Part shown: positions 31,565-48,499 of the stretch, one piece after another
Position numbering within the stretch: the stretch's first letter is position 1
Layout of the letters: each line of letters begins with the position of its first letter
Origin: Phycisphaeraceae bacterium
GTDB taxonomy: Bacteria; Planctomycetota; Phycisphaerae; Phycisphaerales; UBA1924
Direction of reading: 5' to 3'
Assembly: GCA_019636655.1 (NCBI GenBank)
Contig: JAHBXB010000001.1
Location: 372,001 to 436,000 of the forward strand
DNA length: 64,000 nucleotides
The notes under the pieces: model-generated
Database searches by the model: none
What the model was told of the DNA's origin: nothing
The model's input: only the letters and a program-made list of their open reading frames with translations
Position numbers and translations under genes: made by a program

Positions 31565-32146
31565 CTACTGCATTCGCCTGGAGAATCGGCGCTGGTTGGC
31601 GTCGGGGAAGCCGAAGATGCGGACCCAGCGGATCATCGGGAATGCCAGGAGCAGCGCCGGGAGACCGGTGTAGACGGCGGTGCCGCACCGCGAGACGAGC
31701 TCCGCGAACATCCCGCCGCCGCCTCCTTCGTAGAGCGAGCGGAAGGCGGTGAGAGAGACGGAGATGATCGCGGCAACGACTCCCGCGATGATCGTGAGGG
31801 CCACGACGCTGCGCGGATTGCGGCGGATCACGGTGTTGCGCACCTGGTACACGGCGAAGGCGCCGGCCATGTACCCCAGGGCGTTGGGGCCGAGATGGAC
31901 GACGGTCGAGAGGGCGTCCGCGCCGCTGCCGATAGGCCCGAGCAGGTCGAGCGTGGCGCCGATGATGAGGGCGAACCAGAGGGCGTGGTGCAGCGCGGCG
32001 TGCATCGCGACGAAGACGACCAGCGGCATCACGAAGCCCGGCACCATGAGCGGCATGGTGCCGAAGCGGATCCCCAGCGCGGGGGAGAGCCCCAGCTCGA
32101 GGCCGAGCAGCAGGTACGCGGCGATGAGCGCGGCGGGCCAGCTCAT
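31565..32146 (-). CDS. mreD: Rod-shape-determining protein MreD
   Basis: A 193-residue integral membrane protein with about five or six hydrophobic segments (MSWPAALIAAYLLLGLELGL, MVPGFVMPLVVFVAMHAAL, ALWFALIIGATLDLLG, YMAGAFAVYQV, VVALTIIAGVVAAIISV, VYTGLPALLLAFPM). MreD sequences are poorly conserved, so the call rests mainly on topology, the DLLGP segment and position right after mreC. Its ATG overlaps the mreC stop (ATGA), implying translational coupling. It helps MreB/MreC guide wall synthesis in the inner membrane. Confidence 0.85.
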   Translation of the reverse strand: MSWPAALIAAYLLLGLELGLSPALGIRFGTMPLMVPGFVMPLVVFVAMHAALHHALWFALIIGATLDLLGPIGSGADALSTVVHLGPNALGYMAGAFAVYQVRNTVIRRNPRSVVALTIIAGVVAAIISVSLTAFRSLYEGGGGGMFAELVSRCGTAVYTGLPALLLAFPMIRWVRIFGFPDANQRRFSRRMQ

Positions 32147-33054: not shown

Positions 33055-33129
33055 GCGTCAGTGTGGTGCGTCGGCCGGCGCGACTGGGTGGTGAGCGGCT
33101 GGGGTGGACCGGCGGTGGGGGGGCGGAGA

Positions 33130-34176
33130 TCAGACGTCGTTGTCGGACTCGAGGGTGTCCTTCCATTCCTCGATGTGCTCGAGGTAGATGGCGGTTCCCC
33201 GGGCGACGCAGGTGAGGGGATCGTCGGCGATTCGGGCCTCGAGGCCGGTGGCGTTCTGGAGGACGACGCCCATGCCGCGGAGCAGGGCGCCGCCGCCGGC
33301 GAGGGTGATGCCGTTCTCGACGAGGTCCGCGGCGAGTTCGGGCTCGGCCTTCTCGAGGGTGCGGGTGACGGCCTCGACGATGGCGGAGACGGGCTCCATG
33401 AGGGCCTCGCGGATCTCCTCGCTGGTGATGATGGTCTTGCGCGGGAGGCCGGAGATCATGTCGCGGCCGCGGACCTCCATGGACGTCTCGTCGCCGACGC
33501 GTGCGGCGGAGCCGATCTCGATCTTGACCCGCTCGGCGGTCTGCTCGCCGATCATGAGGTTGTAGGTGCGCTTCATGTGGTTGATGATGGCCTCGTCGAG
33601 GTCATCACCGGCGACGCGGACGGACTCGCAGACGGCGACGCCGCCGAGGGAGAGGATGGCGACCTCGGTCGTTCCGCCGCCGATATCGACGATGGCGGAG
33701 GCGGTGGGCTCGGCGAAGGGGAGGCCGGCGCCGATGGCGGCCGCGACGGGCTCCTCGATGAGGTAGGTCTTCCAGGCGCCGGCGCGCTTGGCGGAGTCCC
33801 AGACGGCCATCTTCTCGACGGCGGTGATGCCGGAGGGGATGGAGATGACCACGCGCGGGCCGACCCAGTTGCGGCCGTTGACCTTGCGGATGAAGTAGGA
33901 GAGCATCGCCTCGGTGATCTCGAAGTCGGAGATCACGCCGTCCTTGAGCGGGCGGATGGCGGTGATGTTGCCCGGGGTCTTGCCGAGCATTTCCTTGGCG
34001 ACCCAGCCGACGGCCTCGCCGTCCTTGAGCACCTTGTTGGTGTTCTTGACGACGGCGACGACGCTGGGCTCGTTCAGAACGATTCCCTGGCCGCGGACGG
34101 CAACAAGCGTGTTGCACGTCCCGAGGTCGATCCCCATGTCCAACCTGACAAGGCCAAGCACGCGATCAAGCAGCAC
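33130..34176 (-). CDS. mreB: Rod-shape-determining actin-like protein MreB
   Basis: A 348-residue actin homologue that polymerises under the inner membrane and orients wall growth. Motifs: phosphate-1 MGIDLGTCNTLVAVRG, NEPSVVAVVKN, LKDGVISDFEITEAMLSYF, VISIPSGITAVEKMAVWDSAKRAGA, EPVAAAIGAGLPF, phosphate-2 IVDIGGGTTEVAILSLGG and adenosine-binding ITLAGGGALLRGMG. The start is a GTG at 34176, giving the normal amphipathic N terminus MLLDRVLGLVRL. It is the first gene of a likely operon mreB-mreC-mreD-GlmU-like-polA on the minus strand. Confidence 0.97.
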   Translation of the reverse strand: MLLDRVLGLVRLDMGIDLGTCNTLVAVRGQGIVLNEPSVVAVVKNTNKVLKDGEAVGWVAKEMLGKTPGNITAIRPLKDGVISDFEITEAMLSYFIRKVNGRNWVGPRVVISIPSGITAVEKMAVWDSAKRAGAWKTYLIEEPVAAAIGAGLPFAEPTASAIVDIGGGTTEVAILSLGGVAVCESVRVAGDDLDEAIINHMKRTYNLMIGEQTAERVKIEIGSAARVGDETSMEVRGRDMISGLPRKTIITSEEIREALMEPVSAIVEAVTRTLEKAEPELAADLVENGITLAGGGALLRGMGVVLQNATGLEARIADDPLTCVARGTAIYLEHIEEWKDTLESDNDV

Positions 34177-34446: not shown

Positions 34447-35442
34447 TCAGTTGACCTTGACCGTGGAGGCGACGGGCTCGGCGGCTCTGGAGGGGGACGA
34501 CGCCTCGGCGCCGCGGTCGGTGCGGATCGCCTTTTCAGGGTGGATCTCGATGACTCGCCGGGCGGGCTTGAGCGAGGGCCGAGCGGGCGCGGCGGCCGGC
34601 CCGGCGGCCTCGCGGTCGAGTTGCAGGCGGGCCTGCTGCTCGTAGTTGTCCTGCGAGGTGCTCTGGGCGAAGCAGTCGAGCTTGGCCTCCTGGCGGGCCC
34701 GGACGTCGGCGAGGCGGGCCCGGACCTGGTCGAGGCTGCCGGCCTTGTAGCGGCTCTGCTCATCGATGGACTGCTGCCACTTGCCGACGATCGCGATCAT
34801 GCGCTCGTTGCGGGCGATGGCGTCGACCTCCTGGTCGATGGTCCACAGCTGGGCCTGGAAGTTGGTGCGCTCGGACTCGAGTTTCTCGAGGATGGCGACG
34901 AGCCGCGATTCCTGCTTGGCGAGCAGGTCGAGGTTGCGCTCGAGTTCGACGCACTTGGTGGAGTAGGCGTTGCTGGTCGCCGCGGCCTGGTCGGCCTTGG
35001 ACTGGGCGGTGGAGATGTCGATCCGCCCGTTCTTGTAGGCGATGACGACGTCGGTGGGCTCCTGGAGCGCGACGGTGCGGATCTGCTCGGCCTGGGCCTG
35101 GTCGATCGCGGCGAGCAGGGAATCGCGGTCGCCGTCGGCGAGGGCCACGACCTTGCCGGAGATGGCGATGTCGCGCTGGATCTGGGCCTTCTGCTCGCGG
35201 AGTTCGGCGAGGTCGCCGCGGACTTCGCTGATGCGCTTGGGGTACTGCGACTCGAGGTCACGGAGCTGGGCGCGGAGGGCGACCGGGTCGGTGATCGCCT
35301 TGTCGATCTTGTCGTTGATGGCGGAGCGGGTCTGTGTGAAGAGCGCCCCGACGCGGTCGGGGCCGGCGATGACGACCGCCGCGCCCGTGGCCAGCGCCCC
35401 GATGACCCCGATTCGGACAACATGCTTGGTGATGCAGGCCAT
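34447..35442 (-). CDS. Membrane-anchored coiled-coil protein, unknown function
   Basis: A 331-residue protein with a perfect AAGGAGG site before its ATG. The N terminus (CITKHVVRIGVIGALATGAAVVIAGP) is a membrane anchor or signal segment. Residues about 40-240 are heptad-rich coiled coil (RAQLRDLESQYPKRISEVRGDLAELREQKAQIQRD, VELERNLDLLAKQESRLVAILEKLESERTNFQAQL). The C-terminal 70 residues are Ala/Pro/Arg-rich and likely disordered. I do not recognise a named family. It sits just upstream of mreB on the same strand and is divergent from the sigma factor gene, so a structural envelope role is conceivable. Confidence 0.75.
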   Translation of the reverse strand: MACITKHVVRIGVIGALATGAAVVIAGPDRVGALFTQTRSAINDKIDKAITDPVALRAQLRDLESQYPKRISEVRGDLAELREQKAQIQRDIAISGKVVALADGDRDSLLAAIDQAQAEQIRTVALQEPTDVVIAYKNGRIDISTAQSKADQAAATSNAYSTKCVELERNLDLLAKQESRLVAILEKLESERTNFQAQLWTIDQEVDAIARNERMIAIVGKWQQSIDEQSRYKAGSLDQVRARLADVRARQEAKLDCFAQSTSQDNYEQQARLQLDREAAGPAAAPARPSLKPARRVIEIHPEKAIRTDRGAEASSPSRAAEPVASTVKVN

Positions 35443-35770
35443 GGTGAATCCTCCTTGGCACTTCGTGCGGGCTTCGCGGCGACCGGGCCGCTCACAGTGA
35501 CGGGCACGGCGCCATGCCGAGTGATTGGGAGGATGGGTCGGCGGTTTTCGCGCGGGCTTGACGGAGCGGATCGGGAGTTACCGGAACGGGGCGCGCGTGC
35601 GGCCGTGGCGGGCCGCGAGAGGAGGCCGGGATATCCTCAATACAAGAGGTTGGAACCGGGCGGCGGTCTGTCGGAAGAACGTGGCGGTGGGGGTTGGCAT
35701 ATTGAGGAGCGCGGGCGTCGCGGCAGCCGAACGATTAGCGAACGGATGCGGGCGAGTCGGCGGGAAGACG
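35443..35770. other. Divergent intergenic region; ribosome site but no convincing promoter
   Basis: 328 bases between the coiled-coil gene (minus) and the sigma factor gene (plus). The only clear element is AAGGAGG just outside the coiled-coil start. I see no convincing -10/-35 pair or long dyad. Regulators of both genes probably act here. Confidence 0.5.
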
Positions 35771-36523
35771 ATGCTCAACTCTCTGACCACGAGTTTCATC
35801 GCGAGGCTTCGGGCCAACGACCAGGGGGCGTGGTTCGAGCTGTGGGAGACGTTCGGGCCGGTGCTGCGCGCGCAACTGACGAAGTGGGGGAAGGGACGGA
35901 TCGGGCCTGAAACGGTGCGGGACCTCTCGCAGGAGACGCTGGCCGCGTTGTCGGACTCGATCGACCGGTACGACCCGGGGCGTGGGGCGAGGTTCTCGAC
36001 GTGGCTGCTGGCGATCGCGAAGCACGTGCTGGGGGACGAACTGGACCGGAGGTCGGCGCTCAAGCGAGGGGGAAACAAGCGGGCGGCGGTGCTGGACGAG
36101 ACGTGGATGCGGGCGGCGCCGGGGCTCGGGGCGGATGCGGAGTACGAGGCGGCGATCTTCCGGGCGAAGGTGGAGGCGGCGATCCGGCTGGTGGAGAAGG
36201 CGAGCGACTTCACGGACTTCTCGATCTACCGGCTGCGCGTGCTGGACGGCAAGAGCGGCAAGGAGGTGGCGGGCGCGCTGGGGATGAGCGAGCCGACGGT
36301 GAGCCGGCGGCTGTCGCGGGTGCGGGACCTCCTGCGGTCGCGGCTGGCGGAGGTGATCTCGACGTATTCATTCACGGAGGACGAGCACGCGGAAGCGTCC
36401 CGAAACGGTCTTGAACTGAATCCCACCAACACGGACGACTCGCTGTTTGACGAGGCGGTGGCGGAGATTTACCACCGCCACATGGAACTCAAGCGGGCGG
36501 ACCGGGTGACGAGCACGGGGTGA
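35771..36523 (+). CDS. Sigma-70 family RNA polymerase sigma factor
   Basis: A 250-residue sigma factor. Region 2: IARLRANDQGAWFELWETFGPVLRAQL, DLSQETLAALSDSIDRYDPGRGARFSTWLLAIAKHVLGDELDRR. Region 4: DFTDFSIYRLRVLDGKSGKEVAGALGMSEPTVSRRLSRVRDLLRSRLAEV with a helix-turn-helix. A C-terminal tail of about 45 residues (STYSFTEDEHAEASRNGLELNPTNTDD...) goes beyond the minimal ECF form and may be regulatory. The start at ATG 35771 gives the family length; longer in-frame starts run into non-family sequence. The kinase gene follows 49 bases downstream, suggesting joint control. Confidence 0.88.
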   Translation: MLNSLTTSFIARLRANDQGAWFELWETFGPVLRAQLTKWGKGRIGPETVRDLSQETLAALSDSIDRYDPGRGARFSTWLLAIAKHVLGDELDRRSALKRGGNKRAAVLDETWMRAAPGLGADAEYEAAIFRAKVEAAIRLVEKASDFTDFSIYRLRVLDGKSGKEVAGALGMSEPTVSRRLSRVRDLLRSRLAEVISTYSFTEDEHAEASRNGLELNPTNTDDSLFDEAVAEIYHRHMELKRADRVTSTG

Positions 36524-36572
36524 CGGATTCCCGGCTGCTGCCCCGGGCGCCGCGTACGGAGGGACGACCGCC

Positions 36573-38945
36573 ATGATCAGCCTTGGAGCACCCATCCTGG
36601 TCCTGCTGGCGTTGGTGGCGATCCCGCTGGGAATCGTGGCGCTGATCTACCTGATCATCCCGGTGTTCAAGGGCGTCGCGTGGTTGGTGCGGCAGGTGCT
36701 GCGGTTTGTCATCGGTGAGATCTCCGATGTGCTGCGGCTGATCGGCGCGATCGTGACGGGGATCGTGCTTGTGCCGCTGGTGATCGGGAACATCGTCATC
36801 GGGCGGTGGTCGGCGTCGGCGCACTTCGGGCGGGCGATCCGTTCGGAGTGCCACACGGGCGCGATGGCGGTGTACCGGATGCTGATCGGGCACCCGGCGC
36901 GGCTGCTGTGCCTGACGCCGCTGGTGGACGGGATCGAGCGGCGGATCCCCGAGGCCGTGGCGGCGGCGCCGGGGGCGGACCGGCCGCGGGGCCGGGAGGG
37001 GCAGTTCCCCGGGTACACGATCGTCGGGTCGCTGGCGGGCGGGGGATCGGGCGGGCGGCTGTACGTGGCGGAGCCGAGCACGGAGAAGGCGGCGGCGCTG
37101 TCGCGTCAGGGGATGAACGGGGTGGAGCGGGTGGTGATCAAGTCGTTCTCGCTGCGCGATGGGTCGACGCTGCCGCAGATCGTGCGGGAGAACCGGGCGC
37201 TGGACGCGGCGAAGCGGCTGGGGCTGATCATCGAGCACGAGCTGACGCAGGAGCGGTTCCACTACGTGATGAAGTACGTGCCGGGGGACTCGCTGTCGCT
37301 GGTGACGCAGCGGATGCACGCGGCGTCGGGGGACGGCGGGCTGGACGGCGCAACGCTGGCGAGGGCGCTGGAGTACTCGTGCGACCTGCTGAGGACGCTG
37401 TGTCATTACCACTCCGGCGGGCTGTGGCACAAGGACGTGAAGCCGGACAACATCATCGTGTCCGACGGGCAGGCGCACCTGGTGGACTTCGGGCTGGTGA
37501 CGCCGTTGCGGAGCGCGATGACGCTTACGACGCACGGGACGGAGTATTTCCGCGATCCGGAGATGGTGCGGATGGCGCTGCGCGGGGTGAAGGTGCACCA
37601 GGTCGACGGGGCGAAGTTCGACGTGTACGCGGCGGGGGCGGTGATCTTCTCGATGATCGAGAACTCGTTCCCGGCGCACGGGGGGCTGTCGCAGATCACG
37701 CGCCGGTGCCCGGAGACGGTGCGGTGGATCGTTCGGCGGGCGATGACGGACTACGACAAGCGGTACGCGAACGCCGGGGCGATGCTGGCGGACCTGGAAG
37801 TGGTGGCGGCGGCGCGGGATCCGTACGCGCTGCGGCCGGCGGACCTGCCGAGCGTGGGCGAGACGGGCGGCGAGGAGTCGGCCGCTGCGGCGGGAGCGGC
37901 CGCCGGCGGTCGTGGAGCGGACGGCGCCGAGCCGGACTGGGTCTTCGCCCGCGGGGCGCGTTCACCCAGGCCGCCGGCGGAGCCGGCGCCGGCGCGGGCC
38001 GGGCGCACGCCGAAGGTGAAGGTGACGTCGTGGTGGTCGGGCCGGTACCAGGTTGAGCCCGGGGACGCGGGCGTCAAGGCGCCGGGGCCGATCGGTGCGG
38101 CCTTTGGTGCGATGGGCGCGGCGGCAGCCGCGGTTCCGCACGAGCGGCGGCGGACGCCGTCGGCATCGGCGGCGGAGCAGGTGCGGTCGGCGCGGCGGCG
38201 CGCGGCGGAGGCGCGCAAGCGCGCCCAGAGCCGGATGCGGTCGCGGCGCGGGGTGCCGGACGATGTGGCCGGGATCAACACCGGGGTCGGCGTGGCGCTG
38301 GCGGCGTTCATGGCGCTGATGGCGTGCGTGGGGCTTGCGGTGTACCTCATCAACTCTTCCAAGGCGACGAGGGCGATGGCGACCGCGGTGCAGACGCCGG
38401 TGGTCTCGGTCGGCGATGGAACGATCTCGGTGCGGACCTCGACCGCGTCGGTGGTCCGCGTGGGAGAGCCGGCGACCGGCGCTGCGCGGGTCGCGACAAC
38501 CGTGAGGGGCGCCGCGCCGGCGTGGAGCGCGAAGCCCAAGGGTCGGATGCTCGTGCTGCGGGATGCCTCGACGCTGAGCCCCGAGATGGCCGAAGCGACG
38601 AAGCGGCAGTTCAAGGACCTGGCGAGTGCGGGGTTCGAACTCATCGGGAACGTGCCGGGCAACGAGGAGATCGAGAGCGAGGAGCGGGAAGCGCAGGACG
38701 CGATGATCGCGGATGTCCGCAACGCGGTTCGGCTGCTGCCGTTCCAGTCGGCGGAGGCAAGGTCGGTGATCCGCGGCTGGCTGGATGCGAGCCCGGATGT
38801 TGACCTGCTGCTGTGGGTGGCCCGCGGGGATGATCCGGCGGAGGCGTCGTGGTGGATCGTGGGGCCGTCGGTAATCGAGAAGGGCGTGCTGTCGGCCGCG
38901 GCGGACGCGATCCAGGCCAAGCCCGCGAGAACGGCGGGGCGTTAG
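36573..38945 (+). CDS. Membrane Ser/Thr protein kinase with HKD catalytic loop and C-terminal outer domain
   Basis: A 790-residue protein. Residues 5-80 hold two or three hydrophobic segments. The kinase domain (about 147-415) has a glycine loop AGGGSGG (155-161), VVIKSF with K190, HKDVKPDN (286-293, with Lys in place of the usual Arg in HRD), VDFGL (304-308) and GTEYFRDPEM. Residues 415-565 are Ala/Gly/Arg/Pro-rich linker, followed by a membrane helix GVALAAFMALMACVGLAVYLI and a C-terminal domain of about 200 residues (MLVLRDASTLSPEMAEATKRQFKDLASAGFELIG...DVDLLLWVARGDDPAEASWWIVG), perhaps a sensor. It lies between the sigma factor and a giant charged membrane protein on the same strand. Confidence 0.85.
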   Translation: MISLGAPILVLLALVAIPLGIVALIYLIIPVFKGVAWLVRQVLRFVIGEISDVLRLIGAIVTGIVLVPLVIGNIVIGRWSASAHFGRAIRSECHTGAMAVYRMLIGHPARLLCLTPLVDGIERRIPEAVAAAPGADRPRGREGQFPGYTIVGSLAGGGSGGRLYVAEPSTEKAAALSRQGMNGVERVVIKSFSLRDGSTLPQIVRENRALDAAKRLGLIIEHELTQERFHYVMKYVPGDSLSLVTQRMHAASGDGGLDGATLARALEYSCDLLRTLCHYHSGGLWHKDVKPDNIIVSDGQAHLVDFGLVTPLRSAMTLTTHGTEYFRDPEMVRMALRGVKVHQVDGAKFDVYAAGAVIFSMIENSFPAHGGLSQITRRCPETVRWIVRRAMTDYDKRYANAGAMLADLEVVAAARDPYALRPADLPSVGETGGEESAAAAGAAAGGRGADGAEPDWVFARGARSPRPPAEPAPARAGRTPKVKVTSWWSGRYQVEPGDAGVKAPGPIGAAFGAMGAAAAAVPHERRRTPSASAAEQVRSARRRAAEARKRAQSRMRSRRGVPDDVAGINTGVGVALAAFMALMACVGLAVYLINSSKATRAMATAVQTPVVSVGDGTISVRTSTASVVRVGEPATGAARVATTVRGAAPAWSAKPKGRMLVLRDASTLSPEMAEATKRQFKDLASAGFELIGNVPGNEEIESEEREAQDAMIADVRNAVRLLPFQSAEARSVIRGWLDASPDVDLLLWVARGDDPAEASWWIVGPSVIEKGVLSAAADAIQAKPARTAGR

Positions 38946-39003
38946 GGCGGGCGTGTGCGGCGGCCGTTTCAACCCATCGGCCCCGTGAAACGTACAATCT
39001 GGT

Positions 39004-41898
39004 ATGAGCCGAACGCACGAGGTGGCACGAGCCGCACGCCGCAGGCTGGGGGTGCGGGATCTGGTGAACAGGCTGGGCCCGGCGCTGGTGGTGGGGAGCG
39101 CACTCGGGCTAGGGGCGGTGGTGGCAGAGCGGGTGCTCGGCGCGAGCGGGCTGGCGTGGTGGGTGGTGGTCGCGGTGCCGGTCGCGGGTTCGGCGGCGGG
39201 CGCGGCGGCGATCGCGGCGTTCCGGCGGCGGTCGCTGCTCGAGGCGGGGGGCGAGGTGGATGCGGCGCTTGGGCTGAGGGACCGATTGTCAACCGGGCTG
39301 GCGTTCTCGGGGGCGACCGCGGGGCCGTTTGCGTCGATCGCTGTTGAGGATGGGGAGCGCGCGGCGGGGGGTGTGGCGCTTCGGCGGGCGATTCCGGTGC
39401 GGTTTGGATCGTCGTGGTGGGCGTGGCCGGTGCTGCTGGTGGGGGCGGTGGGGGCGGGGTGGCTGCTGCCGGAGTGGAACCTGTTGCGGCCGGCAGCGGT
39501 GAGCCCGCTGGTGCTCGCCGAACGGGAGCGGGCGCGGGTTGAGGCGGCGAAGGACGTTGTCGCGGCGGTGGAGTCGATCCGGGCAACGCACGATGCGCCG
39601 ACAGTGGATGTGGCGGGGCGTGAGCAGTTGGCGGTGCTGGAGCAGATCGAGCAGGAGTTGGCGGATGGTCGGGTTTCGCCCGAGGAAGCGCGGCGGGTCG
39701 CGGCCGCGGCGATGGATGAGGTGGCGAAGGAGAAGGGCGAGGCGGCGGAGGAGGCGCAGCGCCGGGCCGATGCGCTTCGGGAGCAGTTGGCGCAGGCGGG
39801 GGCCGGGGGCGGGAATCCGTCGGGCGGTGGATCTGGGTCGGTGCTGAGTGATGCGCTGCGGCGCGGAGATGTGTCGGGGGCGGCGAAGGCGGCTGAGGCG
39901 ATGTCGCGAGAGTTGGCGGAGATGACGCCGGAGGAGCGGGCGAAGGCCGCGGAATCGCTCGAGCACCTGGCGGAGGATCTTGAGGCGTTGAGCCGGCCGG
40001 AGGAGAAGGCCGCCGGGGAGACTGGCCAGGAGCAGGCGCGGCCGGGGGAGGATCCGCGGGAGCAGAAGGCCGTCGAGGCGCTCCAGGATCAGGGGCTGTC
40101 GAAGGAGCAGGCGTCGCGGCTGTCGAAGGAGACGGACGGGGAGAAGATCAGGGAGGAGTTGGAGAAGAACAGGATCGATCCCGAGACGGCGCGGCGAGCC
40201 GCGGAGAAGATCGCGGAGCAGAACCGGGAGCGGCGGGCGGAGGAGCAGGCGGCGAAGGAGCGGGAGAGCCTGGCTCGGTCGCTGAAGAGCGCTGCGCAGT
40301 CGCTGCGCGAGCGGGAGCAGACGAACGAGGCCGAGGCGACGAAGGAGGGCGGTGCCTCGCAGCAAAGAGAGGAGAGGAACGGGGCGGGGCGGGGCTCCGA
40401 GAAAGACGCGGAGAAAAGGCCGGAGAAAAAGCCGGGCGACTCAAGGCGGGAGGAAGGATCATCCCAGAAGGACCGGGAGGGAGGGAAAGGGGCGGGCGAG
40501 GAGGAGCGGGCGAGCGGGAACAAGGGGGACCAACCCGGATCGAAGGGCGCGGAAGGGAGCGCCGGGGCGGAGGGTGAGAAGGGGGGCCAGGAGCGGCGGG
40601 AGGAGGGATCAAAGGGGCGTGGCGAGAAGGACGGTTCTCGCGCGCAAGGCGGCGACGCCCGGCCGAAGACGGATCAGAAGAAGACCGGTGCCGGCGAGGG
40701 CGACAAGAAGGAGGAGGCGGCGAAGGGCGAGCAGCCGACGGGGGGCGACGGCCGGCAGAAGAACGAGGCGGGCAACGGAGCGCCCGATTCGCCGCGGCAA
40801 GGGGCGGATGAGCAGCGTGGAACGCAGCCTGGAGAGCAGGGGCGACCGAGCGAGAAGGACCAAGGGAGGGATGAGAAGAAGGAGACGGGTGACGCAGGTG
40901 GAGGTGAGAAGGAGCAGGGGCGGAATGCACGGGCTGGGGAGAAGAAGGATGGGACCGAGAAGGGCCCGGGAACAAAGGACGAGAGGAACGCGAGAACAGG
41001 TGGCGAAACACCAAAGGGCGGAGAGACGCCGGGCGCTGACGACGCGAAGCGCATTGGTGACAAGCCAGAACCGGGCGCCGGCACGACTCCAACGGGTATC
41101 GAAGCGCCGAAGGGCCTCCGATCCGGCGGCGAGAAGGCCAGCGACGGAAAGACGGGCCGGCCGACGGCTGGCAAGCCGGGGGAGACGTCGGGGGGCGAGG
41201 CGGAGGCAACGGACACGTCGAGGGATGGTGCGGGCGGCGAGAAGCCAGTACCGGGTGCGGCGAAGCCGGGCGGAGGGTCGCCAGAGGGGGCGACGGATGG
41301 GTCGCCCGGCGAAGGCGTGTCGCGACTGACCAAGCAGTTGAAGGATCTAGAGAACTCGTCGCGCGGCGCGGAGCGGGATGGGAAGTCGGCGCAGGAGTTG
41401 GCCGACAAGGCCCGTGAGATGTGGGATAGGGCCGACCCGGAGACGCGGGAGCGGATGAAGGACTGGGCGCAGCAGATGTCGCGGGAGCAGGGGAACAAGA
41501 AGGGGTTTGCGCCGGGGGACAACGCGCCGGTGGACCAGGCCGGGGGCGGCGGATTCACGGGCACACCGAGCGACCGGCCGCGTGGGGCCGAGCCGTCGCC
41601 GCCGCTGCCGGCGAGGACCACGGTGGTCGACGGCCGCTCGACGCCACCGCAGGGCGATGTCGACCCATCGCGCGAGCGGGTTGTCGCGGAGTGGTTGGGC
41701 GACGGCAAGTCCGGGGAGCGCGTGTCGCGCCAGGAGGTCGAGGCGAGGATCTCCGAGGCGGCGCAGAGCGCGGAACGGGCGATCGGCGATGACCGGACGG
41801 TGCACTCGAGGTACGACAAACTGATCCGCCGGTACTTCCGCCGATTGCCGGACAACATCGTGCCAGCCGGGGAACCGCCGGCCCCGTCGTCTCCGTAG
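39004..41898 (+). CDS. Giant membrane protein with long charged low-complexity region
   Basis: A 964-residue protein. The first 170 residues contain three or four hydrophobic stretches (GPALVVGSALGLGAVVAERVLG, LAWWVVVAVPVAGSAAGAAAIAAF, SWWAWPVLLVGAVGAGWLLP). Residues 170-420 are helical with coiled-coil character (ELADGRVSPEEARRVAAAAMDEVAKEKGEAAEEAQRRADALREQLAQ). Residues about 420-790 are almost entirely Gly, Glu, Lys, Arg, Asp, Gln, Ser and Ala, certainly disordered. The C terminus returns to ordered helices (REMWDRADPETRERMKDWAQQMSREQG; VEARISEAAQSAERAIGDD...YDKLIRRYFRRLPDN). The layout recalls DUF4175-like proteins encoded beside VWA proteins; this is a tentative comparison. It precedes the double-VWA gene by 80 bases. 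Confidence 0.75.
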   Translation: MSRTHEVARAARRRLGVRDLVNRLGPALVVGSALGLGAVVAERVLGASGLAWWVVVAVPVAGSAAGAAAIAAFRRRSLLEAGGEVDAALGLRDRLSTGLAFSGATAGPFASIAVEDGERAAGGVALRRAIPVRFGSSWWAWPVLLVGAVGAGWLLPEWNLLRPAAVSPLVLAERERARVEAAKDVVAAVESIRATHDAPTVDVAGREQLAVLEQIEQELADGRVSPEEARRVAAAAMDEVAKEKGEAAEEAQRRADALREQLAQAGAGGGNPSGGGSGSVLSDALRRGDVSGAAKAAEAMSRELAEMTPEERAKAAESLEHLAEDLEALSRPEEKAAGETGQEQARPGEDPREQKAVEALQDQGLSKEQASRLSKETDGEKIREELEKNRIDPETARRAAEKIAEQNRERRAEEQAAKERESLARSLKSAAQSLREREQTNEAEATKEGGASQQREERNGAGRGSEKDAEKRPEKKPGDSRREEGSSQKDREGGKGAGEEERASGNKGDQPGSKGAEGSAGAEGEKGGQERREEGSKGRGEKDGSRAQGGDARPKTDQKKTGAGEGDKKEEAAKGEQPTGGDGRQKNEAGNGAPDSPRQGADEQRGTQPGEQGRPSEKDQGRDEKKETGDAGGGEKEQGRNARAGEKKDGTEKGPGTKDERNARTGGETPKGGETPGADDAKRIGDKPEPGAGTTPTGIEAPKGLRSGGEKASDGKTGRPTAGKPGETSGGEAEATDTSRDGAGGEKPVPGAAKPGGGSPEGATDGSPGEGVSRLTKQLKDLENSSRGAERDGKSAQELADKAREMWDRADPETRERMKDWAQQMSREQGNKKGFAPGDNAPVDQAGGGGFTGTPSDRPRGAEPSPPLPARTTVVDGRSTPPQGDVDPSRERVVAEWLGDGKSGERVSRQEVEARISEAAQSAERAIGDDRTVHSRYDKLIRRYFRRLPDNIVPAGEPPAPSSP

Positions 41899-41978
41899 CC
41901 GCCGCGCGTGCGGGCGCGAGTTCGGATGGGCGGGTTTCGCGTGAAGGTGGGGCTACCCGCGGAGACTATGCTGCGATC

Positions 41979-44900
41979 GTGAGCATCCGATTCGATCAGC
42001 CTGTGTGGCTCCTGCTGCTCGCGCTGAGCGTGCCGGTGGCTGTCATTGGTGTACGGTGGCTCACGGGGATGAGCCCGGTTCGTCGCGCCACGGCGATTGT
42101 CGCGCGAGTCGTGCTGGTGGCACTGGTGTCGGCCATGCTGGCCGGGGCGACGGCGGTGCGGACGACCGAGCGGCTGGCCGTAGTCGCCGTGGTGGATGTC
42201 TCGGGGTCGGTGAGGCGGCTGGCGGATCAGGCGGGGACTGGAGAGGTTGGGAGCGGGGACGGACGGCGGGCGCTCGAAGCGGTGAGACACTTTCTGGAGG
42301 CGGCCGCGGCGGATCGGAAGCCGGACGATCTGCTGGGGATCGTCGTCTTCGACTCCTCGGCGGTGGCGGTCGCGACGCCGACGCGGGCGGATGTGCTGCA
42401 GCGGTCGTTGGACGTCAGCACGGGTGAGGGGTCGAACATCGGCGAGGCGCTGCGGTTCGCGGCGGCACTGTTCCCTCCGGATGCGACGAGGCGGATCGTC
42501 CTGTTTTCGGATGGGAACGAGACGGCGGGGCGCGCGATGGAGGCGGCGAAGGAGCTGTCGGCGTCGGCGGGGCTTGGGGGCGTGGCTAGCGCGGGGCGGG
42601 AGTCCGGGGGCGTCGTGGTGGACGTGGTGCCGATCGCGTACCACTTCTCGAACGAGGTGGTGGTGGAGGCGGTGGAGGCGCCGCCGACGGCGCCGCCGGA
42701 GGGGACGATCAACGTGCGGGTGGTGCTGAGCGCGACGTCGCCGGCATCGGGCGTGCTCAGGCTGCTGAACGAGGGGGAGGAGATCGACATCAACGGCGCG
42801 GAGGCGGGATCGGCGCGGCGGGTGACGCTGGCGCCGGGGCGGAGCGTGGAGTCGATCGCGGTGAAACTCGATGCGTCGCGGGTGCACCGGTTCGAGGCGA
42901 TCTTCGAGCCGGATGCGGGGCCCACCAGGTCCGGCGGCGCGGCGGCGTACGCGGGGGACACCGTCCTGACGAACAACCGCGCGGAATCGTTCACGATCAC
43001 GGCGGGCCGCGGGAGCGTGCTGGTTGTGGACGGGGTGAGCGGCGGCGATGCGCAGGGCGCGGGGGCGACGCTGGCGCGAACGCTGTCGGGCGCGGGCATC
43101 GATGTGGAGACGGTGGCGCCGGCGGGGCTGCCGGGTGATCCGCTGTCGCTGCAGGCGTACGACCTCGTGATCCTGCAGAACGTGGCGGCCGATGCGCTGC
43201 CGCGGAACTCGCACGCCTTGCTGGCGAGTTACGTGTCGGACCAGGGGGGCGGGTTGATCATGGTGGGGGGGCCGGACTCGTTCGGCGCTGGGGGCTGGAA
43301 GGGGTCGGACCTGGAGGCGGTGCTGCCGGTGCGGCTGGACCTGCCGGAGAAGCTGGTGGTTCCCGCGGCGGCGATCGTGCTGGTGCTCGACGATTCGGGG
43401 TCGATGTCGCGGAGCGTGATGGGCTCGTCGAGGACGCAGCAGGAGGTGGCGAACGAAGGGGCCGCGCTGGCGGTGCAGTCGCTGGACCGGACGGACATGG
43501 TCGGGGTGATCGCCTTCAACTCGGACTACGTGGTGCTGGTTCCGCTGGACCGGAACACGGAGCCGGACCGGACGTGCTCGATCATCCGCTCGATCCGGCC
43601 GGACGGGGGAACGGAGATCGGACCGGCGCTGGAGGAGGCGTTCAACCAGCTCAAGGATGCGGAGGCGACGGTCCGGCACGTGATCCTGCTGACCGACGGG
43701 GTCTCGGGGGATCGGCAGAGCCTGCCGGACCTTGCGGTGCGGATGAAGGAGGAGGGGATCTCGCTGTCGACGATCGCGGTGGGCGATGGAGCGGATGCGC
43801 AGACGCTGCAGGTGATGGCGGACCGGGGCGGGGGCGCGTTCTACCGGGTGACGGACCCGAGCCTGTTGCCGCGGATCTTCCTGAAGGCGGTGCGGGTGGT
43901 GCGGACGCCGCTGATTCGGGAGGCGCCGTTCACGCCGGTGGTGCTGGCCACGGGTTCACCGGTGACCGAGGGGGTCGGGGCGGGGATGCCGCCGCTGCGG
44001 GGTCTTGTGCTGACGCAGCCGCGGCCGGAACGGACAGTGACACTGGCGATGACGACGCCGACCGGCGAGCCGCTGCTGGCGTACTGGAACGCGGGGTTGG
44101 GGCGCGTGGCGGCGTTTACATCCGATGCGCATTCGAAGTGGGCCCAAGGGTGGATCGGCTGGCCCGGGTATCGGCGGATGTGGACGCAACTGGAGCGGGA
44201 GATCGCGAGGCCGGCGACCGATCGCACGGCGGAACTGACGACCGAGGTGGTGGGGGATTCGTTGCGGCTCCGGCTGGACGCGGCGGACAAGGACGGGAGA
44301 CCGCTGGATCTGCTGTCGGTGCCGGCGAAGGTGTACGGGCCCGATGGGAAGGTGATCGCGACCCAGTTGGCGCAGACGGCGCCGGGGGTGTACGAGGGAT
44401 CGGTGCAGGCGACGGGGAGCGGGAACTACGTGGCGGTGCTGACGCCCCGGCAGGGGACGCGTCGGCTGCCGCCGGTGCTGGGCGGCGCCTCGCGGGCGTC
44501 GGGGGTAGAATTCCGAGCACTGTCGTCGAACATCGGGCTGCTGCGGGACGTGGCGGGCGTGACGGGAGGGCGGGTGTACGACCTGCGTGATCCGTCCTCG
44601 GCGAACCTGTTTGACCGCACGGGTGTGAGGCCGAGCGAGGCGCGGCAGCCGCTGTGGAGGCCGCTGCTGCTGTGGACGATCATCGTGCTGCTGATGGATG
44701 TGGCGACGCGGCGGATCGCGTGGGACCGGTTTTTCAGCAGCCGGTACGGCGCGGACGTCAAGGCGGCCGCGGCGGATGCGGTGCGGGACCGCGGGGCGCG
44801 GGCGGCGGCGGCGTTGTCGTCGCTGCGCGGAGCACCCGCGGCGGCGCCGGCCGGGGGAGCTTTGTCCACCGACGATGCACGGCGGATTGTCGCGGAGCAG

Positions 44901-45110
44901 GCGAGGCGGCGGAAAGAGGAGCGGGCCGCCGCGGCGCGGGGCGGCACCGCGGCAGGAGCTGGGGCAGCGTCGGCAGCGCAAGCGCCGCGGGACCCGGGGG
45001 AGGCTGGGCAAGCGGAAGATCGAACTTCGGGACTGATGGCGGCCAAACTGCGTGCGAAGCGGCAGTTCGAGGAGAGGAAGGAAGGCGGCGCTGGAGGCGC
45101 CGGGGAGTAG
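41979..45110 (+). CDS. Membrane protein with two VWA domains and a GATase1-like middle domain
   Basis: A 1043-residue protein. Two N-terminal membrane helices are followed by a first VWA domain (VVAVVDVSGSVRR, DxSxS present), an extracytoplasmic linker, a glutamine-amidotransferase-1-like segment (GSVLVVDGVSGGDAQGAGATLARTL...YVSDQGGGLIMVGGPDSFGAGGW) and a second VWA domain (VLVLDDSGSMSRSVM, VRHVILLTDGVSGD) with a complete MIDAS. A last membrane helix (LLLWTIIVLLMDVATRRIAW) precedes a charged cytoplasmic tail. This is the architecture of planctomycete proteins found near MoxR/DUF58 loci, though no MoxR gene is in the window. Likely role: metal-dependent binding in the periplasm. It follows the giant disordered protein gene by 80 bases, and the methyltransferase gene starts 2 bases after its stop. 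Confidence 0.85.
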   Translation: MSIRFDQPVWLLLLALSVPVAVIGVRWLTGMSPVRRATAIVARVVLVALVSAMLAGATAVRTTERLAVVAVVDVSGSVRRLADQAGTGEVGSGDGRRALEAVRHFLEAAAADRKPDDLLGIVVFDSSAVAVATPTRADVLQRSLDVSTGEGSNIGEALRFAAALFPPDATRRIVLFSDGNETAGRAMEAAKELSASAGLGGVASAGRESGGVVVDVVPIAYHFSNEVVVEAVEAPPTAPPEGTINVRVVLSATSPASGVLRLLNEGEEIDINGAEAGSARRVTLAPGRSVESIAVKLDASRVHRFEAIFEPDAGPTRSGGAAAYAGDTVLTNNRAESFTITAGRGSVLVVDGVSGGDAQGAGATLARTLSGAGIDVETVAPAGLPGDPLSLQAYDLVILQNVAADALPRNSHALLASYVSDQGGGLIMVGGPDSFGAGGWKGSDLEAVLPVRLDLPEKLVVPAAAIVLVLDDSGSMSRSVMGSSRTQQEVANEGAALAVQSLDRTDMVGVIAFNSDYVVLVPLDRNTEPDRTCSIIRSIRPDGGTEIGPALEEAFNQLKDAEATVRHVILLTDGVSGDRQSLPDLAVRMKEEGISLSTIAVGDGADAQTLQVMADRGGGAFYRVTDPSLLPRIFLKAVRVVRTPLIREAPFTPVVLATGSPVTEGVGAGMPPLRGLVLTQPRPERTVTLAMTTPTGEPLLAYWNAGLGRVAAFTSDAHSKWAQGWIGWPGYRRMWTQLEREIARPATDRTAELTTEVVGDSLRLRLDAADKDGRPLDLLSVPAKVYGPDGKVIATQLAQTAPGVYEGSVQATGSGNYVAVLTPRQGTRRLPPVLGGASRASGVEFRALSSNIGLLRDVAGVTGGRVYDLRDPSSANLFDRTGVRPSEARQPLWRPLLLWTIIVLLMDVATRRIAWDRFFSSRYGADVKAAAADAVRDRGARAAAALSSLRGAPAAAPAGGALSTDDARRIVAEQARRRKEERAAAARGGTAAGAGAASAAQAPRDPGEAGQAEDRTSGLMAAKLRAKRQFEERKEGGAGGAGE

Positions 45111-45112
45111 GA

Positions 45113-45898
45113 ATGGAACGGGAACGGGTCGACCACACCGCGCCGCTGCACACGATGAACCCGACCTCGCGGTTCGGGGCGCGGGCGGAGGATTACAAGA
45201 AGTTCCGGCCGTCGTATCCGGGTGCGGCGATCGATGCGGTGCTGGACGGGCTGGGCGAAGCGGGGAGGGTGGTGGCGGCGGATGTCGGGGCGGGAACGGG
45301 GATCTCGTCGCGGCTGCTGGCGGAGAAGGGCGTGCGGGTGATCGCGGTCGAGCCGAACGCGGCGATGCGGGAGGCGGCCGAGGCGCACGGGCTGGTGGAG
45401 TGGCGGGATGGGACCGCGGAGGCGACGGGTCTGCGGGATGGGGAGGTGGACCTGGTGGTGTGCGCTCAGGCGTTCCACTGGTTCGAGCCGGTCGGCGCGG
45501 TGCGGGAGTTCTGGCGGGTGCTCAAACGCGGCGGGCGCCTGGCGCTGGTGTGGAACTCACGGGACAACCGGGACGATCTGACTCGGGGGTATGTCGAGGC
45601 GATTCGCACCCACGGCGGGGAGCACCCGGCGGAGCGGCGTCCGTTCCGGCCCGACGGGGTGAGCGAGACGGGGCTGTTCACGCCGTTGCGGCTGTTCGAA
45701 GTTCCAAGCGAGCAGGCGCTGGACGAGGAGGGGCTGCTCGGGCGGGCGGCGAGCGCCTCGTATGTGCCCAAGGCGGGGCCGGATCATGACCGGCTGATGG
45801 AGGCGCTGCGGGTGCTGCACCGGGCGCACCGCGGGGCGGATGGGATGGTGAGGCTGCGGTACATCACGCAGGTGTGGACGGGGGATCGGGTGGGGTGA
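45113..45898 (+). CDS. Class I SAM-dependent methyltransferase
   Basis: A 261-residue protein of the type-11 methyltransferase family: RPSYPGAAIDAVLDGLGE, the SAM motif AADVGAGTGISSRLLAEKG, VRVIAVEPNAAMREAAE, GTAEATGLRDGEVDLVVCAQAFHWFEPVGAVREFWRVLKRGGRLALVWNSRDN. The early segment SRFGARAEDYKKFRPSYP and the FHWF motif match small-molecule methyltransferases; the substrate is unknown. ATG 45113 lies 2 bases after the VWA stop with GGGGAG inside that gene's end, so it is probably the last gene of that operon. It ends in a region with a shared terminator. Confidence 0.9.
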   Translation: MERERVDHTAPLHTMNPTSRFGARAEDYKKFRPSYPGAAIDAVLDGLGEAGRVVAADVGAGTGISSRLLAEKGVRVIAVEPNAAMREAAEAHGLVEWRDGTAEATGLRDGEVDLVVCAQAFHWFEPVGAVREFWRVLKRGGRLALVWNSRDNRDDLTRGYVEAIRTHGGEHPAERRPFRPDGVSETGLFTPLRLFEVPSEQALDEEGLLGRAASASYVPKAGPDHDRLMEALRVLHRAHRGADGMVRLRYITQVWTGDRVG

Positions 45899-45902
45899 CG
45901 CC

Positions 45903-45943
45903 AAAAACAAAGCCGCGGGCCGCGCATGGTGCGCGGCCCGCGG
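45903..45943 (-). terminator. Intrinsic terminator of the sulfatase gene (usable from both sides)
   Basis: A perfect 13-bp stem CCGCGGGCCGCGC (45913-45925) and its reverse complement (45931-45943) around loop ATGGT. On the minus strand it is followed by CTTTGTTTTTGG (complement of 45902-45912), the U-run of a rho-independent terminator. It sits between the convergent ends of the methyltransferase and sulfatase genes. Confidence 0.8.
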
Positions 45944-45964: not shown

Positions 45965-48499
45965 TTACTCGCTGGCCTTGTTGTTGCGCTGGGCCGCCTC
46001 GAGCTTCCTGATGTCCTCGGGGCTGAGTTGCGGGCGATCGATCTTGAGCGTCAGCGTGTTCAGCCTGGCGGTGAGCGGGAACGGCGGCGTGTAGTCCTCG
46101 TCGTTCACGCCGGTCAGCGTGTCGGAACCGATGTCGAAGGACTCGTCCCATTGAAGGATCATGGGGAGGGTGTGGGGCATCTCGTGCGTCGCCACGGCCT
46201 TGCCGTCGACCTTGAGGGTGCCGGTGCCCGGGCGTCCCAGGCCGCTCATGTTGTTGAAGGCCAGCGTTCCCACGCCGAGGCCGTCGTACTCGAAGTCAAA
46301 CTCGATGGTGTGGCGGCCGGGCGAGAGGGCCTCGGGGCCCTCCCATTTCATGCGCCTCAGGTCGAGCAGGTTCCAGAGGAAGACGGGCTTGCCCTTGAGC
46401 AGGTAGAAGCCGTATCCGCCGAAGCGGCCGCCGGAGGTGAGGATCATTCCTTCCGCGCCGCCCGCGGGCACCTCGATGTCCGCCGTGATGGTGTACGAAC
46501 TGTTGAGGAGGAAGGGGGAATCGCCCTGGGGCAGGCCGACCATCGGGTGCTTGTACACGAACTCGGTTCGGCCGGCGGTGATGTTGGGGCGCGGCGCGAC
46601 GATGCGGCCCGCGACGGAGGCGTCCATCGGGAAGACCTGGTACTTGCGGGCCTCCTCGATGAACAACTGCCTGAGCTGCTTGACCTTGTCGGGGTGCTTG
46701 TCGGCGATGTTGTTGGACTGGCTGAAGTCGGTGTTCAGGTCGTAGAGCTCGAAGACCTGGTTGTTGAGCGGGTCGGGGTTGGCGGTGCCGAATGCCTCCC
46801 AGGGCGCACGGTTTACCTTCGTGCTCAGGAGCCAGCCCTCGTGGTAGAGGGCGTACTGGCCCATCATCTCGAAGTACTGGGTCGTGTGGCGGGAGGGCGC
46901 CTTGGCGTTCGCGGGATCGAAGGTGTAGAGGAGGCTGGTGCCCTCGATCGGAGCCTGCTTGATGCCGTCGACCACCTCGGGGGCGGGGATGCCACAGGCC
47001 TCGAGGATGGTCGGGACGATATCGATGATGTGGCAGAACTGCTCGCGCAGGGCGCCCTTGTCCTTGATCCGCGCCGGCCAGGAGATGCACATGCCCTGGC
47101 GGATGCCGCCGAGTTTCGAGGCGTTCTGCTTGAACCACGTGAAGGGGGCATCGAAGGCCCACGACCAGCCCGCCGACATGTGGTTGTACGTCTGCTCAGT
47201 GCCCCAGACGTCGTACCACTTCATCTGAACGTCAACGGGCACGCTGACGCCGTTGAAGAAAGCGACCTCGTTCGGAGTGCCCAGGGGTCCGCCCTCGGCG
47301 CTGGTGCCGTTGTCGCCGTTGATGTAGATGATGAGCGTGTCGTCGAGCTTGCCCATGTCCTCGATGGCCTGGATGACGCGGCCGATCTCGTGGTCGCTGT
47401 AGGCGACGTAGGCAGCGAAGACCTCCACCTGCCGGATGTAGAGCTTCTTCTCTTCGGGGGTGCAGTCGTCCCAGTTCTTGATGACCTCGGTCGGCCAGGG
47501 GGAGAGGTTGGTGTTCGGGGGGATCACGCCCAGGCGCTTCTGGTTCTCGTAGATCCGCTCCTGGACCTTATTCCAGCCCTCGTCGAAGAGGTGCATGGCG
47601 TGGATCTTGTCGACCCACTCCTTGGTCGGATGGTGGGGCGCGTGCGAGGCGCCGGGCGCATACTTGACGAAGAACTTCTTGGTCGGGTCGATCTGGTTGA
47701 GTTCGTTGAGGCGAGCGATGGCGTCATCGGCCATGCCGGTGATGAGGTTCCATCCCGGCTTGCCCTCGAACGGGTAGATCTGGGTCGTGTTGCGGAAGAG
47801 GTTCGGCTGCCACTGGTTGGCATCGCCGCCCACGAAGCCGTAGAAGTATTCGAACCCCATGCCAAGCGGCCACTGGTCGAAGGGACCGACCTGGCTCGCG
47901 GCGAACGCGGGGGTGTTGTGGTCCTTTCCGAACCACGCGGTCGAGAAGCCGTTGTCCTTGAGAATCCGACCGATCGTCGCCTTGTCCTCGGCGATGATGC
48001 TGTTGTACCCGGGGAAGCCGGTGGCCTGCTCGGAGATCACGCCAAAGCCGGCCGAGTGGTGGTTGCGGCCGGTGATGAGGGCGGCCCGCGTCGGCGAGCA
48101 GAGCGCGGTGGAGTGGATGTTGTTGTAGCGCAGGCCGTTGTTGGCGATGCGGTCCATGGCGGGCGTGGGGATGACGCCGCCGAAGGTGCTGGGGACGCCG
48201 AATCCGGCGTCGTCGGTGATGATGAGCAGGATGTTGGGGGCTTCCTTCGGCGGCACGATGCGGGGCGCCCACCAGAACTTGGACTGGAGCGCATCGTCCT
48301 TGATCACGCCGCCGAAAGCCGGGTCGGGCGCGGGGAGTTGTTTGCCGTCGATGGTAGTGGTGGCGCTCGGCGAGCCGGGTGTGCCGGTGGTCTGGATGGG
48401 CGCGGGCTTGGTGGGTGGTTGCCGTGATTCCGCGTGGCACGCGAAGGTGATCGCGGCGACGAGGGCGCCAGAGAGCAAGGACGAGGTGGGCCGGTCCAT
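45965..48499 (-). CDS. Exported arylsulfatase (type I, Cys-type)
   Basis: An 844-residue sulfatase. N-terminal export signal SLLSGALVAAITFACHA; Asp pair in APNILLIITDDAGFG; the maturation motif CSPTRAALITGRNHH with C134 that becomes formylglycine; WFGKDHNTPA, SHAPHHPTKEW with further ligands, and NGDNGTSAEGG. The C-terminal 230 residues form a beta-rich, LamG-like segment (SSYTITADIEVPAGGAEGMILTSGGRFGGYGFYLLKGKP). Size and order match Pseudomonas AtsA-type arylsulfatases. It hydrolyses sulfate esters, presumably from algal or other polysaccharides, outside the cytoplasm. CAGGAGAAATAA precedes the ATG as ribosome site. The FGE-like gene lies 3.6 kb away. Confidence 0.93.
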   Translation of the reverse strand: MDRPTSSLLSGALVAAITFACHAESRQPPTKPAPIQTTGTPGSPSATTTIDGKQLPAPDPAFGGVIKDDALQSKFWWAPRIVPPKEAPNILLIITDDAGFGVPSTFGGVIPTPAMDRIANNGLRYNNIHSTALCSPTRAALITGRNHHSAGFGVISEQATGFPGYNSIIAEDKATIGRILKDNGFSTAWFGKDHNTPAFAASQVGPFDQWPLGMGFEYFYGFVGGDANQWQPNLFRNTTQIYPFEGKPGWNLITGMADDAIARLNELNQIDPTKKFFVKYAPGASHAPHHPTKEWVDKIHAMHLFDEGWNKVQERIYENQKRLGVIPPNTNLSPWPTEVIKNWDDCTPEEKKLYIRQVEVFAAYVAYSDHEIGRVIQAIEDMGKLDDTLIIYINGDNGTSAEGGPLGTPNEVAFFNGVSVPVDVQMKWYDVWGTEQTYNHMSAGWSWAFDAPFTWFKQNASKLGGIRQGMCISWPARIKDKGALREQFCHIIDIVPTILEACGIPAPEVVDGIKQAPIEGTSLLYTFDPANAKAPSRHTTQYFEMMGQYALYHEGWLLSTKVNRAPWEAFGTANPDPLNNQVFELYDLNTDFSQSNNIADKHPDKVKQLRQLFIEEARKYQVFPMDASVAGRIVAPRPNITAGRTEFVYKHPMVGLPQGDSPFLLNSSYTITADIEVPAGGAEGMILTSGGRFGGYGFYLLKGKPVFLWNLLDLRRMKWEGPEALSPGRHTIEFDFEYDGLGVGTLAFNNMSGLGRPGTGTLKVDGKAVATHEMPHTLPMILQWDESFDIGSDTLTGVNDEDYTPPFPLTARLNTLTLKIDRPQLSPEDIRKLEAAQRNNKASE

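Follow-up and report, generated by a model that had tools for sequence, protein, structure and literature searches.

A putative kinase-gated ECF sigma module beside a MoxR-free VWA gene set in Phycisphaerales

Extracytoplasmic function (ECF) sigma factors of the canonical kind carry a DxxDxxQE motif in region 2.2, while the kinase-controlled ECF43 factors have QTTA or STTA there and are activated by phosphorylation of a threonine; in EcfK, a second phosphosite located in the linker also matters (PMC8999054, PMC13147305, PMC8103513). In the ECF43 pairs EcfP-PknT of Vibrio parahaemolyticus and EcfK-PknS of Xanthomonas citri, the sigma factor is phosphorylated by a Ser/Thr kinase encoded next to it (PMC8999054, PMC13147305). 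Kinase control has been predicted for several ECF groups whose model members are planctomycete, and a table lists the planctomycete groups ECF59, ECF61, ECF62 and ECF217 as kinase-linked (PMC8999054). Among the passages of the cited literature, known targets concern only members of ECF43, outside Planctomycetes. In the phage shock protein (PSP)/Lia response, Toastrack, SHOCT-like and Band-7 proteins have been described as partners (PMC11237479); LemA, DUF4870 and TM2 go unmentioned in the available portion of that account, and Planctomycetes are not named in its main text. The present study concerns a locus of a Phycisphaeraceae bacterium in which an ECF sigma factor gene (SIG) is followed by a membrane Ser/Thr kinase gene (KIN), preceded by a divergent gene for a putative coiled-coil membrane protein (CCM), and followed further on by genes for a giant charged membrane protein, a VWA protein and a methyltransferase. 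It lies in a 64,000-nucleotide stretch of DNA, referred to as the window, from a genome of 3.66 Mb in 8 contigs.

The original prediction joined five plus-strand genes, with gaps of 49, 58, 80 and 2 bases, in a single signalling chain. The layout is exact by the coordinates of the open reading frames, and the pair formed by the sigma factor and the kinase is real and conserved, but the five-gene chain does not stand. The reading that we favour, and consider probable, is that of a kinase-gated ECF sigma switch with a neighbour derived from MoxR operons. On the evidence of gene order, two neighbouring modules make up the block: A (CCM, SIG and KIN) and B (the genes for the giant, the VWA protein and the methyltransferase). 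CCM, a conserved partner gene of the sigma/kinase pair, lies just outside the interval originally considered and had been overlooked. The features of module A are as follows.

34447-35442, minus strand: CCM, 331 aa, one N-terminal membrane helix followed by long helices and then a tail; oriented divergently from the sigma gene; proposed main target
35522-35550, minus strand: predicted ECF-like promoter of CCM, CGAAA-N15-TCCCAATCA
35771-36523, plus strand: SIG, ECF sigma factor by Pfam, 56-79% identical to 31 relatives
35912-35935, plus strand: sigma region 2.2 motif TVRDLSQE, residues 48-55; Thr48 is invariant in orthologs
36401-36425, plus strand: promoter-like element inside the sigma coding sequence, CGAAA-N15-TCCCA, 172 bp before the kinase start
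36573-38945, plus strand: KIN, membrane Ser/Thr kinase (PF00069), found in 48 of 61 genomes

Gene order was compared in 61 genomes, i.e. the window's own, 36 others from its family (f1) and 24 from the rest of the order (f2 to f6 denote other families); genes of the relatives were called by a codon-bias caller trained on the window's genes and refined per locus, and starts may be off. SIG is present in 48 genomes, including all 37 of f1 and none of f5 and f6, and KIN occurs in exactly the same 48, adjoining SIG in 47 of them. The exception is G012, in which SIG (C4:10422) and KIN (C4:97535) are about 87 kb apart. CCM is divergent to SIG, at a distance of 50-600 bp, in 24 loci. The link between the two modules is far looser. 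SIG and a VWA gene of the window's type (type A) are less than 12 kb from each other in 13 of the 36 f1 genomes having both, on one contig but at least 188 kb apart in two, and on different contigs in 21. In two of these 21 (G031 and G003) the VWA region is at the end of a contig, next to part of a kinase gene, and further cases may also be contig breaks, while in nine others different genes follow the kinase for more than 5 kb (in a 20-kb stretch around SIG). When the modules are adjacent (15 cases, the 13 within 12 kb plus the two at contig ends), kinase and giant are separated in 10 by an oppositely oriented trpD-like gene (the one copy scanned has PF00591 and PF02885), so that a simple common operon can be ruled out for these; no trpD-like match was found in four (the window, L075, L103 and L072), and the fifteenth, G034, is outside the trpD check. 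Twelve named contigs with a VWA relative were also considered (nine Phycisphaerales, one Phycisphaeraceae and two Planctomycetota metagenome-assembled genomes); in the named metagenome-assembled genome L016 both modules are present, with two other minus-strand genes between them. In G051 (f4), 1.1 Mb of a single contig separates SIG from the type-A VWA gene, and window-type VWA proteins are found in families with and without SIG, f6 having VWA but no SIG. These separations and intervening opposite-strand genes indicate that a common transcript is not the rule and that the block is made of two modules, so that the conservation of gene order that the original prediction had put forward as its own check largely failed: SIG and VWA are often apart, with the trpD-like gene often intervening.

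SIG is an ECF sigma factor with regions 2 and 4 (PF04542, 8e-11; PF08281, 2e-7), as had been proposed from the sequence. Its region 2.2 reads T-x-R/K/Q-D-L-S/T-Q-D/E, and the threonine is found in 33/33 orthologs and is invariant in the 32-sequence alignment. Compared with a DAED-type motif, SIG has lost the acidic residue at two of three places, and this invariant threonine holds one of the two, which makes activation of SIG by phosphorylation of Thr48 the likeliest mechanism as far as sequence can tell. This is reminiscent of ECF43, with which SIG shares an encoded Ser/Thr kinase neighbour that is co-inherited, and the loss of acidic residues from the DxxD motif together with an invariant threonine there. 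However, instead of an uncharged QTTA with the phosphorylated threonine at the third place (or STTA), all 33 orthologs have TVRD or variants of it, with threonine first and aspartate last. SIG may thus work like an ECF43 factor, yet is not classed as one. A second ECF-like sigma factor is encoded in the window (10248-10985, minus strand) and is not an ortholog of SIG.

The identification of the second protein as a kinase was borne out by Pfam (PF00069, 3e-18). Hydropathy revealed an N-terminal hairpin (11-29/53-81) and a single helix (572-590), from which the idea that its domains lie on both sides of the membrane is plausible. KIN is probably an active kinase since K190, H286-K-D288, K290-P-x-N293 and D305 are invariant in an alignment of 29 sequences. 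The N-terminal hairpin and the kinase domain are conserved, and the C-terminal part is poorly so, which would suit a sensor.

The clearest clue to what SIG might control came from the region between CCM and SIG. A de novo search for dyads (two short words 14-19 bases apart) in 24 such regions retrieved TTGGG-N16-TTTC (in the reading direction of SIG) in 16, against at most 5/24 in each of 10 shuffles; on the CCM strand this is TGAAATC-N13-TCCCAA, and the ECF-like promoter upstream of CCM is written YGAAA-N15-YCCSA. Where CCM is 3-6.6 kb from SIG (L088, L114, L121 and L122) or the two genes are on different contigs (L168 in G010 and L176 in G017), the motif travels with CCM and hence belongs to it. 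A score matrix built from 19 sites reaches the threshold of 8 bits in 28/28 CCM upstream regions, including 9/9 that had not been used in building it (2/28 after shuffling), and in far fewer regions upstream of the giant (1/35), VWA (0/72), mreB (0/12) and MoxR (0/23) genes. In 11 extra f1 genomes the CCM site has N15 in 7/10 and N14 in two. The matrix also finds sites upstream of SIG in 11/33 cases, and a looser pattern (N14/N15) occurs within 320 bp of SIG in 9/33, scattered in f1; a similar element is seen 37-49 bp before SIG in f2 and f3 (3/3) and in none of f4 (0/5, two loci added). That SIG uses YGAAA-N15-YCCSA is what this conservation and co-occurrence suggest.

Upstream of KIN, the matrix scores at least 8 bits in 14/32 cases, and the matches inspected fall inside the sigma gene. 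These were at first viewed as a coding coincidence, a view overturned by a codon test and by the situation in G012. The pattern CGAAA-N15-YCCSA was found within the sigma coding sequence, 147-243 bp before the kinase start, in 24/26 f1 loci and in 9/11 further f1 genomes, with the same spacing as the CCM promoter. The arginine codon that it requires is CGA in 26/28 sequences. Among the other 25 arginine columns the highest share is 21%, and CGA accounts for 77 of the 863 other arginine codons of these sigma genes (the Fisher value for these counts treats related sequences as independent). In G012, whose KIN is about 87 kb from SIG, the embedded copy is missing and a free-standing copy is found about 57 bp upstream of KIN.

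CCM itself is moderately conserved (28 members, mean column identity 44%) and, in a single-sequence AlphaFold2 prediction, would form helices at 53-126 and 143-279 (mean predicted local distance difference test score 66.8). No convincing Pfam family was found for the window protein or the 28 members. A profile search of the PDB gave 20 matches, mostly coiled coils, with a best E of 0.007, leaving identity with PspA unsupported. Genes mreC and mreB (32143-34176, minus strand) immediately follow CCM and share its strand, and mreB adjoins CCM in at least seven relatives, which makes the proposed coiled-coil target a neighbour of cell-shape genes.

Genomes were also scanned for TGAAANC-N13-YCCSAA, with a spacer one base longer and the reversed pattern as controls, yielding 93 sites in 37 genomes. 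The 23 f1 genomes have 73 sites versus 16 with the longer spacer (p 4e-10) and nine with the reversed pattern; the seven genomes without SIG have eight versus nine and four, although these are also more distant, and phylogeny confounds the comparison. Sixty of the f1 sites were fetched in 59 stretches, the remaining 13 being at CCM (11) or before SIG (2), and 48/60 are intergenic versus 9/16 spacer controls. The genes behind the 60 sites include seven homologous clusters, and those behind the 16 control sites (a smaller sample) none. One spacer-control site, L216, precedes a SHOCT-like gene and is probably real, which makes this control slightly too strict. The clusters (Pfam was run on some site-linked genes only) are small SHOCT-like membrane proteins in eight genomes, DUF4870 proteins in five (PF09685, 2e-29 and 5e-31 in the two scanned), Toastrack-like proteins in three (PF13349, 1e-7 in the one scanned, L193), an HlyD-type family (one scanned), CCM in two genomes, and two clusters (L164/L189/L192 and L162/L194) of secreted-looking proteins of some 580-650 aa with no Pfam match in the one member of each that was scanned. 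LemA (PF04011, 5e-55), Band-7 (PF01145, 1e-11) and TM2 (4e-10) proteins are single cases. For YGAAA-N15-YCCSAANNA the window genome has four sites, before CCM, before a Toastrack lipoprotein-like gene (PF13349, 3e-10), before genes for three consecutive small membrane proteins, of which one has a SHOCT-like Pfam match below the cut-off (4e-4), and one site that is intragenic. At L213 (G000:C4 near 233978), three small tandem membrane proteins are encoded behind a SIG-type site, the first with the tail RREIAAYIAEGSM; these are possibly a new SHOCT-like family.

Taken together, the following scenario would account for module A. KIN, anchored by its hairpin and with its variable part outside, would sense an envelope signal and phosphorylate SIG, most likely at Thr48, which is found where ordinary ECF sigma factors begin their RNA polymerase-docking DxxD motif with an acidic residue. 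Active SIG would then transcribe from YGAAA-N15-YCCSA promoters, with CCM as a target. KIN would be transcribed via the promoter hidden in the sigma coding sequence, producing positive feedback, and scattered membrane-stress genes (Toastrack, DUF4870, SHOCT-like, LemA and Band-7) would be SIG targets as well, in a manner resembling the PSP/Lia response.

Beside the phylogenetic confounding already mentioned, a number of observations weigh against this scenario. As regards the switch, SIG keeps an acidic residue, Asp51, and the threonine phosphorylated in ECF43 occupies the third place of the motif while Thr48 occupies the first. The assignment of the motif to SIG comes from neighbourhood and co-occurrence, and in seven SIG-bearing genomes of other families the excess of sites is not significant (12 versus 8 with the longer spacer, p 0.25, and 5 with the reversed pattern). 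The matrix reaches its threshold before 11/858 unlabelled genes (5 after shuffling), and 12/60 fetched sites are inside predicted genes, so that part of the regulon list is due to chance; a same-strand start 30-250 bp downstream is more frequent at the fetched sites (38/60) than at controls (5/16), a modest difference (p 0.026). The embedded element is absent from L112 (a near miss), G031 and G034, and from 7/7 other loci checked (L016 and six from f2-f4), and off-by-one spacings of the pattern occur elsewhere in the sigma gene in 5/33 cases. Finally, PspA was set aside as an identity for CCM because PF04012 (PspA/IM30) is listed neither for the window protein nor, for the 28 members, in the top 25 of 94 families, a test that covers CCM alone, with no PspA search of the rest of the genome, and a fold search gave 0/686 matches at E≤0.001, Vipp1 chains being at E 0.08-0.15.

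The second module has a different ancestry. Its genes, together with a feature that follows them, are listed here.

39004-41898, plus strand: giant charged membrane protein, partner of VWA rather than of SIG-KIN, conserved mostly at its ends
41979-45110, plus strand: type-A double-VWA/GATase1_like membrane protein, of the MoxR-free branch of a MoxR-operon family
45113-45898, plus strand: Methyltransf_11 protein, directly 3' of VWA in 10 loci including the window
45913-45943, no strand assigned: 14-pair hairpin, terminator-like on the minus strand, between the block and a convergent sulfatase gene

The giant is indeed a charged membrane protein, as had been described, with 31-49% K/R/E/D per 100-residue block over residues 201-900 and hydropathy above the threshold at 24-72 only. 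Its sequence is best conserved towards the two termini (mean column identity 21%), and no Pfam family was above the cut-off; assignment to a named family was also rejected after 23 members had been scanned, since 22 of the 23 families at E≤0.5 were hit in a single member. The next protein has the two VWA stretches announced for it (PF13519, 3e-31) and two PF07090 GATase1_like stretches, the best of which (651-738) lies behind the second VWA stretch rather than being enclosed by the two. The last is a methyltransferase, as expected (Methyltransf_11, 1e-20). The sulfatase gene (45965-48499, minus strand; PF00884, 5e-48) is convergent to the block.

A tree was made of 59 VWA proteins of at least 850 aa from loci of the G-numbered genomes (12 named loci are outside it), and it has two main clades and four f5 outgroup rows. 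In the type-B clade 14 of 16 rows are MoxR-linked. In the type-A clade (39 rows, including the window), MoxR is linked to 4/5 rows of f6, three of which have the row giant-VWA-MoxR-DUF58-BatA, but to 0/34 of f1-f4 within the fetched stretch. The window genome has a type-B VWA/GATase paralogue as well (L068; G000:C2:541289-544324), 34% identical and heading an operon that continues with MoxR, DUF58 and a BatA/VWA protein. The block was rightly described as free of MoxR and DUF58 genes, the genome's five MoxR matches above cut-off being elsewhere and the only one on the window contig some 830 kb away; the suspected tie of such VWA and charged membrane protein pairs to MoxR loci is right in terms of origin, to judge from the tree and the gene orders. 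By these same comparisons, the giant-VWA pair is a MoxR-free offshoot of MoxR-DUF58-BatA operons, and the simplest history would be that it left MoxR once, at the base of f1-f4. It is probably an envelope-associated VWA assembly, which would rely on a MoxR encoded elsewhere or work without one. With respect to module A, module B is a chance or lineage-specific neighbour.

Could module B nevertheless have been drawn under the control of module A in some lineages? According to this proposal, where the trpD-like gene is missing, the embedded kinase promoter would read into the giant, VWA and methyltransferase genes, and the VWA machine would join the envelope-stress regulon. In the window, kinase and giant are separated by 58 bases without a trpD-like gene, and a terminator scan found no terminator-like site between them, so that read-through is possible there from the promoter-like element 172 bp before the kinase; L072, L075 and L103 likewise lack the trpD-like gene there. 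The two plus-strand terminator-like matches of the block are inside the kinase and VWA genes, and a sigma-70 promoter scan of the block found none. However, transcription would have to cross the 2.4-kb kinase gene, G031, which also has no trpD there, has no embedded promoter, and the giant may have a promoter of its own. We regard such recruitment as unlikely. The broadest formulation, a hitherto undescribed envelope-stress pathway in Phycisphaerales made up of a kinase-gated ECF sigma factor, a PSP-like regulon and feedback via a dual-coded arginine codon, together with capture of giant-VWA by read-through, can be put forward only tentatively, at somewhat less than even chances.

YGAAA-N15-YCCSA might instead belong to another sigma factor or be of general use, with SIG having other targets. 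The indirect nature of the assignment, by neighbourhood and co-occurrence, leaves room for this, but the motif is found at the two constant neighbours of SIG, stays with CCM and KIN when they are displaced, is present 37-49 bp before SIG itself in f2 and f3 (3/3), and is in significant excess in the SIG-bearing family and not in the seven genomes without SIG, all of which makes this alternative distinctly improbable. Even less probable is that the embedded element is merely conserved coding sequence and no promoter. The corresponding peptide, RNGLxLNP, is conserved in the family, and the DNA is constrained anyway, but this seems difficult to reconcile with the preference for CGA at one arginine column out of 26, with a spacing equal to that of the CCM promoters, or with G012, where SIG has no KIN downstream and lacks the element while KIN has its own copy. 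As for one five-gene signalling operon, in which the kinase would signal to the giant and VWA proteins with the sigma factor as output, the common strand, the short gaps, the lack of a terminator-like site between kinase and giant, the direct kinase-giant-VWA order in L075 and L103 and the lack of a trpD-like match in L072 speak for it, but it is largely refuted as a conserved system, and scarcely credible, in view of the many f1 genomes with SIG and VWA apart, the opposite-strand genes between the modules (10/15 adjacent cases and L016), the near absence of the motif at giant and VWA, the 1.1 Mb between SIG and VWA in G051, and f6, which has VWA without SIG.

The probable arrangement, a kinase-gated sigma module next to a MoxR-derived one, can thus be set against the systems described at the outset. 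We class SIG-KIN as a variant within the kinase-linked ECF systems, sharing with ECF59, ECF61, ECF62 and ECF217 the phylum of their model members and the kinase linkage. Unlike in ECF43, the SIG gene holds a promoter-like element for its kinase, and its proposed targets are envelope-stress genes rather than type VI secretion or polymyxin resistance. With PSP/Lia it would share a membrane coiled-coil protein and Toastrack (DUF4097), SHOCT-like and Band-7 genes that would be under one signal (PMC11237479); it differs in that CCM is not detectably PspA/IM30, and in that the proposed control is by a kinase-linked ECF sigma factor and the regulon is scattered rather than a single operon. Module B is classed with a known type of operon as a relative that has no MoxR neighbour, its giant and VWA proteins being homologous to members of MoxR-DUF58-BatA-VWA operons in f6 and f2 genomes. 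No account of the SIG-KIN-CCM module, of its promoter or of any PSP-like regulon in planctomycetes was found in the available portions of the literature searched, which is mostly without subscription journals (including PMC8999054, PMC13147305, PMC8103513, PMC11237479 and PMC11032199).

The proposed pathway is directly testable, as it comes with a specific promoter sequence, a list of putative targets, a candidate phosphorylation site and, in G012, a natural control. Should codon choice indeed preserve a promoter within a sigma gene, the overlapping code would be an unusual one, of which we know no other example, although none was searched for. Finally, module B shows VWA/giant pairs enduring in several families of one order with no MoxR gene beside them.

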